Below are positions 17,559 to 22,630 of a stretch of DNA of 37,856 nucleotides, in pieces (position 1 is the stretch's first letter; each line of letters begins with the position of its first letter). Location of the stretch: the NCBI GenBank assembly GCA_937888715.1, contig CALARU010000358.1:1-37856 (forward strand), read 5' to 3'. Made by a program: the position numbers and the translations under genes. This DNA is from an uncultured Planctomycetaceae bacterium (lineage in GTDB: Bacteria; Planctomycetota; Planctomycetia; Gemmatales; Gemmataceae). The notes under the pieces were generated by a model. The model was not told where the DNA came from. It did no database searches and saw nothing but the letters and a program-made list of their open reading frames with translations.

Positions 17559-18113
17559 TCAGGAAAGGGCCACCTTTAGTTTTTGCAGCGCAGATCGCAT
17601 CTGCGTTTTGATAGTGCCTACGGGCCGGTTTGCAGTTTCAGCAATTTGCTCATACGTCATTTCAGCATTTTGCCTGAGCAGAAAAACTTCTTTTTCTTCG
17701 GGGCGGAGATCCATTAGGGCGGTGCGCAATTGCGCGACCATTTCGTTTTCTTGGAGCGATTCCAATGGGGAAACAGTACTTTTATACATCATGACATCCT
17801 CTTCGGGCATTGTTCGTGTTTTTCGCTTCCATGCACTTTTACGCAGATCCTTGGCGGCATTGATTGCCACTTTAAAAATCCACGCTTTTAGATTTAGAAC
17901 ATCAGGCAGGGCATCTTGCTTTTTCCAACACCGTAGAAACGCATCTTGGGCGATATCCTGAGCATCATCTTTATTCCCAAGAATAAACCAAAGGGTACTG
18001 GTTAACTCGTCCCTTATTTGATTAAAGGTCGCCAATAACCGCTCGCTATTGGATTGATTAGTATCCAACTTCAATGGTGCACTTCCATCCTCGATAATGC
18101 TAGGGCGCTTCAT
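17559..18113 (-). CDS. ECF-type RNA polymerase sigma factor
   Basis: A 184-residue sigma-70 family protein of the extracytoplasmic-function type. Region 2 is at about 28-95, with GNKDDAQDIAQDAFLRCWK and LKAWIFKVAINAAKDLRK, for -10 recognition and core binding. Region 4 is at about 130-182, with LRPEEKEVFLLR and a helix-turn-helix ending in GTIKTQMRSALQKLK. Regions 1 and 3 are missing, as usual for the group. The next gene, 50 nt downstream, encodes a ZAS-bearing membrane protein, the expected cognate anti-sigma. No strong ribosome site precedes the ATG; a weak GAG-type one is present. Confidence 0.93.
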   Translation of the reverse strand: MKRPSIIEDGSAPLKLDTNQSNSERLLATFNQIRDELTSTLWFILGNKDDAQDIAQDAFLRCWKKQDALPDVLNLKAWIFKVAINAAKDLRKSAWKRKTRTMPEEDVMMYKSTVSPLESLQENEMVAQLRTALMDLRPEEKEVFLLRQNAEMTYEQIAETANRPVGTIKTQMRSALQKLKVALS

Positions 18114-18156: not shown

Positions 18157-18348
18157 CGATGGGGCTATGATTTGCGTTTTCCATTCTTCTATCCATGATT
18201 ACTACGAGAACACTTCAAGCTATAGCCACCACAAAATCTTAATGATTTTAAGTAATTTTAGTTATGACACTAGCACAATCACTTGATTGCAGTTACAATA
18301 ATTGAATGGATTTTAAAGGTAGAAATCCGTTTCCAAATGGAGTTGGCA

Positions 18349-18534
18349 ATGAGTACCACGCAAGAAACGCTTAAGAGTTTGCTTGAAATTGGTGAAAGCA
18401 AAGGATTTGTTACTTTTCAGCAAGTTTTTAATGCTGTTACAAAAGAAAAATCCGACCCCGAACGACTCGACAAATTATTGACCCTGCTCGAAGAGCATGG
18501 CATCGAAATCATTGACGATGAAAATGACGATTAA
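18349..18534 (+). CDS. Stand-alone sigma-70 region 1.1 domain protein
   Basis: A 61-residue acidic protein that looks like region 1.1 of primary sigma factors and nothing else: it has LLEIGESKGFVTF, a DPERLDKLLTLLEEHGIEIID segment split by one short loop, and an acidic end. In whole sigma-70 this domain blocks free sigma from DNA and occupies the polymerase cleft as a DNA mimic. The ATG at 18349 has GGAG at 18339-18342; earlier in-frame starts (18283, 18337) are less well placed. It is divergent from the ECF sigma gene and its stop overlaps the convergent peroxiredoxin stop by 3 nt. A role in tuning RNA polymerase is inference. Confidence 0.72.
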   Translation: MSTTQETLKSLLEIGESKGFVTFQQVFNAVTKEKSDPERLDKLLTLLEEHGIEIIDDENDD

Positions 18535-19070
18535 TTATCTCTGGCTTGCGCCTTTTGCAATTGATCCAGTAAAAACTGGATCGTTGGACGGTCGGCAGGC
18601 GATGAAGATTTAAACGCATATACCACTTCACCTTTTGCATCCAATACGAAATCCCCACCCAATTGAAATAAGTCCTCCTTGGAATAGCCCAAGGATGGTA
18701 ACCATCCTGTTAATATTCTTCCCATAAACTTCCACAGCACTTTAGGTAACAGAAAATCCTTCCACTGGGCAGAGCCCAATTCGAACACCTTGTATGCTTC
18801 TTTTTTAGAATCGCTTAGCAAGGGGAATGGCAAATTCAACTCTTGAGCGAGTTTAGACGCCTCGGCGGGTGAAGAAAAAGTGATTGCGACAACTGTCGCA
18901 TTAATATCTTTGAACAATGGGTATTGATCACGGATATCGCCCAGATGGGCTCTGCAAAGCACTCAGCCCAAATGCCTGAGAAAAACCAAAAGAATAGGGG
19001 CTGGGCCAAAAGATCGCAGCTCCCTGATCTGGTTTTGTGTGTCTTGAAACTTTAACAATAAATGGTTCAT
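18531..19070 (-). CDS. PRXL2/SelU-like peroxiredoxin, probable selenoprotein (in-frame TGA)
   Basis: Read from the ATG at 19070 this is a 179-residue AhpC/TSA_2-type thioredoxin-fold protein with one in-frame TGA at 18965-18963 (codon 36). Before it the frame reads PILLVFLRHLG; after it VLCRAHLGDIRDQ. Relatives have FLRHFGCxFCR there, so TGA replaces exactly the first cysteine of the redox CxxC, giving U36-x-x-C39. The downstream part has VVAITFSSPAEA, LPFPLLSD and GGDFVLDAKGEVVYAF, with no other disruption. Naive calling gives only a 143-residue piece from a GTG right after the TGA. No strong ribosome site precedes the ATG. I see only weak candidate SECIS stems after the TGA. The alternative is a nonsense mutation or sequencing error. 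Confidence 0.72.
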
Positions 19071-22057: not shown

Positions 22058-22098
22058 GATGGAGCGCCTATTCCGAAAGGCGCTCCATCATTTTTTTT
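22058..22098 (+). terminator. Strong rho-independent terminator after the BON gene
   Basis: GATGGAGCGCCT (22058-22069) pairs perfectly with AGGCGCTCCATC (22078-22089) around an 8-nt loop, followed by A and eight Ts. It lies 29 nt past the stop of the plus-strand gene. Its right arm and T-run overlap the stop and last codons of the convergent TlpA gene. Confidence 0.9.
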
Positions 22099-22630
22099 CT
22101 ACCACAACTTTATTTAATACTTTTTGAATTTCCCGCTCTATCTTATCCGCTAGATCTTTAAAAGAATTAATATCATCCATGATGGTTTTCGAATTGAAAC
22201 GGATAATCCCCCGCTCATCAATCAGAATAAGCATGGGAAGAAATTCTATATCCCATTCCCGATTGATACTGCCCAACCCATCCCAGAATGAAGGCCATGT
22301 CATGCCAAACTGCTGCTGGGCTTTCACCAACGCAGTTTTATCTATGTCGGAATTAACACCCAGTAAAACAAAAGGCTTGCCTTCAAATTGCTTGACCAAC
22401 TGTTTTTCGTAAGGCAAAAGCTCTTTGCAAGGCCCGCACCACGATGCCCAAAAACTTAACAACACCACCTTGCCCTTATACTGGCTCAATTCCATTTTCA
22501 CCCCCGAAGCATCTTCCGCCTTTATTTCTGGCGCAATGTTTCCAACCCTCACCCCAACAGTCAAAGCCTTCGGTTCCTCTGAACATCCCATAAACAACAG
22601 CAACGCTAGCAACCAATATTTACTTTTCAT
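22088..22630 (-). CDS. TlpA-like thioredoxin lipoprotein
   Basis: A 180-residue envelope-anchored thiol:disulfide protein. The signal ends in the lipobox FMGC (Cys16). A TlpA/ResA-type redoxin domain follows, with YKGKVVLLSFWASWCGPC (active-site WCGPC at 64-68), GVNSDID, and a cis-proline region FLPMLILID. It probably reduces periplasmic disulfides, for example in cytochrome c maturation or protein repair; the substrate is unknown. GAGG lies just before the ATG. The start is one base after the mutY stop, so the two are translationally coupled. The last codons form part of the opposing gene's terminator. Confidence 0.88.
   Translation of the reverse strand: MKSKYWLLALLLFMGCSEEPKALTVGVRVGNIAPEIKAEDASGVKMELSQYKGKVVLLSFWASWCGPCKELLPYEKQLVKQFEGKPFVLLGVNSDIDKTALVKAQQQFGMTWPSFWDGLGSINREWDIEFLPMLILIDERGIIRFNSKTIMDDINSFKDLADKIEREIQKVLNKVVVEKK

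Follow-up and report, generated by a model that had tools for sequence, protein, structure and literature searches.

SelL is a diselenide protein with a UxxU motif. Prx-like thiol:disulfide oxidoreductase selenoproteins of the PF00578 superfamily, which carry UxxC or UxxU, are known in bacteria (PMC13188914), and Prx-like families of the UxxC type are discussed together with SelL in PMC2398784. According to a 2026 review, a bacterial selenoprotein of the cd02970 group carries UxxS and the PrxU-type peroxiredoxins have a TxxU motif (PMC13188914). Selenoproteins have also been reported in two Planctomycetes, as given in a supplementary table (PMC4807772). The bacterial SECIS (bSECIS) model that we applied, as quoted in PMC13188914, is a hairpin with a loop of 3-9 nt, a G in the first two loop positions, a distance of 16-37 nt after the UGA, and an MFE of -7.5 kcal/mol or lower. 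A subset of bacterial SECIS elements lies outside this model (PMC13188914), which is therefore common and not defining. Here we describe a gene for a redox enzyme of known family whose in-frame TGA very probably stands for selenocysteine (Sec); it lies in a stretch of 37,856 nucleotides, called the window below.

The gene, its family and the in-frame TGA

The minus-strand frame from ATG 19070 to TAA 18531 encodes 179 residues and contains a single internal stop, a TGA at codon 36 (Table 1). A standard-code ORF caller returns a truncated, GTG-started ORF of 143 aa (18531-18962), exactly the product that the first-pass annotation had expected from automatic annotation. Its description of one stop with family-typical sequence on both sides was also borne out, as two family matches to the read-through protein span the TGA, namely NF040769, 'SelL-related redox protein' (residues 7-170, 150.1 bits against a cut-off of 120), and Pfam AhpC-TSA (PF00578; residues 8-151, 54.6 bits). 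NF040769 was the only NCBIfam family above cut-off, and each of the 27 aligned proteins, whether Sec or Cys form, matches it; Pfam AhpC-TSA_2 (PF13911) scored 59 bits. The same annotation had put the TGA on the cysteine of an FGCxFC motif. In our alignment the TGA does occupy the column of the first Cys of RHxGCxFC in the Cys homologues, but the local motif is LRHLG-U-VL-C, of the UxxC type, and hence LGUVLC and not FGUxFC.

The AlphaFold model (mean pLDDT 93.5) has a peroxiredoxin/thioredoxin fold with Sec36 directly ahead of the active-site helix 37-48. The best match among solved structures was human prostamide/PGF synthase (9usa, a C44S/C47S mutant; Z 20.1), which we take to be PRXL2B; archaeal Bcp4 came out level with it (Z 19.9). 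In archaeal Bcp enzymes the Cys of the peroxidatic S/T-x-x-C motif falls in the column of Cys39, and Sec36 thus takes the preceding, thioredoxin-like position. We are confident that the gene specifies a thioredoxin-fold, Prx-like selenoenzyme of full length, in which SelB and Sec-tRNA(UCA) would decode UGA36 as selenocysteine and the resulting U36-x-x-C39 redox motif would lie where the active-site helix begins. The selenolate of Sec36 may then attack a peroxide or disulfide substrate, a Sec36-Cys39 selenenylsulfide would form next, and a thioredoxin-type thiol donor would presumably reduce it.

Table 1. Coordinates of the selenoprotein gene, the sites within it and the neighbouring genes of the window.
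Feature	Position	Strand	Basis or remark
Full-length selenoprotein gene, 179 aa, predicted Sec at residue 36; SelL-related / AhpC-TSA_2 redoxin	18531..19070	-	Frame, family matches, orthologues, AlphaFold model
In-frame TGA, the predicted Sec36 that opens the UxxC motif	18963..18965	-	22 further genomes have TGA in this column; homologues from other families have Cys
TGC for Cys39, the partner of Sec36 in the UxxC motif	18954..18956	-	Shares its column with the peroxidatic Cys of archaeal Bcp peroxiredoxins
Place of the canonical bacterial SECIS hairpin of distant orthologues (stem 7 bp)	18932..18948	-	Here degenerate, 4/7 pairs broken
Alternative RNA fold of the window genus, GCCC[AUCU]GGGC and a longer hairpin; hypothetical atypical SECIS	18903..18950	-	No covariation; raised synonymous conservation
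Small convergent ORF	18283..18534	+	60-residue C-terminal part matches only Sigma-70 region 1.1 (PF03979, 47 bits); overlaps the selenoprotein stop codon with its last codons
ECF-like sigma factor	17559..18113	-	Downstream gene
Alpha-2-macroglobulin-like protein, 1836 aa	12016..17526	-	Downstream gene
ResA-like protein	22088..22630	-	Second thioredoxin-fold protein in the window

As for the neighbourhood, synteny of the selenoprotein gene with the ECF-like sigma factor and alpha-2-macroglobulin-like genes holds in six of six loci of the genus.

Distribution of the TGA form and the selenocysteine machinery

We surveyed 59 related genomes and read the loci of 16 genomes of other genera (L022-L036 and L044). 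The orthologue has exactly one stop, a TGA, in 6/6 congeners, and a single TGA likewise stands in the same column of the RHxxUxxC motif in all 16 genomes of other genera; no unrelated extra stops occur in either group. In this column, other families of the class have homologues with Cys (RHxGCxFC). Among the 44 best full-length matches to NF040769 from the 246 genomes of the phylum that were searched, 28, spread over 27 genomes, contain one TGA. A tree of 55 sequences places the window genus, with strong support, beside Sec forms from its own family (L022, L044); the Cys forms are placed elsewhere, and a few other branches contain both Sec and Cys forms. Plasmid records gave distant homologues only (< 60 % identity). 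Since standard gene callers reduce the gene to a 143-aa fragment, its active site is lost from the annotation, and the same loss is likely throughout Planctomycetota, where many genomes carry the TGA form of the family. A single TGA is present, too, in many weaker thioredoxin-fold hits from the phylum, and at the level of sequence this suggests that planctomycete selenoproteomes may be large.

The window genome (4.56 Mb in 414 contigs, 99.6 % complete) encodes tRNA-Sec (selC; 68.8 bits, above the Rfam cut-off). Family searches recovered selA (2.4e-136) and selD (2e-104), and selB (3.1e-121) shares the contig of selA and lies ~300 nt upstream of it, so that all four genes are present. The selD gene (L052, G000:C312:74197-75126, minus strand) is itself a Sec form, with one in-frame TGA in its active-site motif (CAGUAGK) and, after it, a canonical-looking SECIS stem whose loop is GUU. 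Because tRNA-Sec, selA, selB and a Sec-form selD all occur in the genome, the organism very probably makes selenocysteine. Global reassignment of TGA was considered and is ruled out, as several ordinary genes of the window terminate in TGA. A full SelA gene was found in 21/23 TGA genomes versus 1/7 Cys genomes (p 3e-4), an association that is confounded by phylogeny; SelA was not found in two TGA congeners, both of them incomplete assemblies (86-88 %).

The RNA signal after the TGA and competing readings

Among the distant orthologues, 15/16 sequences have a hairpin after the UGA in which six or all of the seven scored pairs form (L036 is a weak exception); its loop, GGC, GGU, GUC, GUU or GUG, begins 20-21 nt downstream of the UGA. 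In the ungapped alignment of this stem, 92.9 % of the cells are paired and 11 cells are changed on both sides; its covariation score was reached by none of 500 shuffles, and slid controls fell to 36-49 % pairing. This covarying hairpin fits the bacterial SECIS model. A uniform scan for model hairpins of -7.5 kcal/mol or lower found them in 24/30 other Sec forms and 2/22 Cys forms, and in 0/7 members of the window genus, whose best candidates with a loop G reach about -1 to -4 kcal/mol. The first-pass annotation had offered a GCCC/GGGC stem and a GGG/CCC stem enclosing AUC-CGU-GAU as weak SECIS candidates; considered here as GCCC[AUCU]GGGC and AUC[CGU]GAU, they stay weak, as no hairpin of the genus conforms to the bSECIS model. 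A longer hairpin ~25-60 nt after the UGA has a low energy (z -3.2, in a stretch picked after the fact), but its z lies between -0.2 and -1.8 in the congeners and no compensatory changes were found in the alternative folds of the genus, and we therefore treat it as a mere candidate. Among other Sec forms of the family (L062, L066, L069, L075, L077, L080 and L083, with RHFGUxFC or UxLC), bSECIS-like hairpins occur at other distances after the UGA than in the relatives of the window gene, and these sequences suggest that subfamilies differ in where the SECIS lies.

Synonymous conservation in the window genus is raised in codons +1 to +14 after the TGA (9/12 invariant vs 34/97 elsewhere, p 0.01), which makes an RNA constraint there likely; in pairwise comparisons p was about 0.02 against L021, and mostly not significant against L020. 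The SECIS of the window genus has diverged and is either atypical or unrecognised, and its misfit to the bSECIS model lowers, and does not exclude, membership among bacterial selenoproteins. We tentatively propose, at somewhat less than even chances, that the genus decodes the UGA through an RNA signal outside the described bSECIS model, the ancestral hairpin having been lost and replaced while Sec was retained. If true, a family hairpin still present in sister lineages was swapped here for another structure. The covarying canonical SECIS of most relatives, set against its absence from the window genus, offers a small, self-contained natural experiment on the true requirements of SelB.

Loss of the canonical hairpin in 7/7 genus members would also be expected if the SECIS had decayed and a near-cognate tRNA (Trp, Cys or Arg) now read through UGA36. 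We consider this very improbable, because the TGA is kept though TGT or TGC is one mutation away, selA, selB, selC and selD are all retained, the relatives carry both TGA and SECIS, and the conserved synonymous sites right after the TGA suggest an RNA signal. Translation of two products, a 35-aa peptide ending at the TGA and a 143-aa protein re-initiated at the adjacent codon, has a still smaller chance of being correct: this codon is GTG, a possible start, in the window genus, but in most other genera it is ATA, ATC, CTC, TTC, AAC, etc., none of them a start, for which reason we rejected re-initiation; the short product would moreover lack the beta strand 26-30 ahead of the active site and the first residue of the motif.

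Selection on the coding sequence bears on the full-length product. On either side of the TGA, congener pairs show a dN far smaller than dS (dN/dS well below 1); in the pair L015/L021, for instance, dN is 0.18 before and 0.23 after the TGA, with dS of about 1.8 and 1.6. The part upstream of the TGA is therefore translated and constrained jointly with the downstream part, the full-length protein is the selected product, and recent pseudogenisation is excluded. A nonsense mutation or a miscalled TGC/TGT, conceivable for one stop in an assembled draft genome where the genus has no canonical SECIS, is refuted in practice by this purifying selection and by the TGA in seven separately assembled genus genomes (dS up to about 1.7) and, with no other stops, in 16 other genera. 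Taken with the Sec machinery of the genome and the TGA kept in relatives, the selection on both sides upholds the original reading of codon 36 as selenocysteine.

Relation to described selenoproteins

The likeness to the SelL-related family (NF040769) consists of a score above the curated cut-off, for Sec and Cys members alike; SelL itself has UxxU, whereas the present protein has UxxC with one Sec. With PRXL2/SelU (FAM213; PF13911 / cd02970), it shares the PF13911 domain and a C/UxxC motif, C44 and C47 of PRXL2B being spaced as CxxC. The PRXL2/SelU-like assignment made from the sequence at first pass is thus plausible, given the PF13911 score and PRXL2B as the best fold match, but the protein is not separable from other peroxiredoxins, being nearly equal on AhpC-TSA and Bcp4. 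The bacterial cd02970 selenoprotein differs in having UxxS in place of UxxC. PrxU resembles our protein as a peroxiredoxin fold with Sec, but there Sec replaces the peroxidatic Cys, whereas here it stands three residues ahead of that column.

The bacterial Prx-like selenoproteins (PF00578) share both the Pfam superfamily and the type of Sec motif with the present protein, a likeness drawn from their published descriptions. The RHLxUxxCxxHL planctomycete clade is not set apart in the tables of PMC13188914 and PMC2398784, and in the main texts of the literature searched we found none that names this clade as a selenoprotein. In essence, Sec redoxins of the UxxC kind have already been described in bacteria, to which this gene adds a well-supported further member, and the divergent SECIS of its genus is its sole unusual point.
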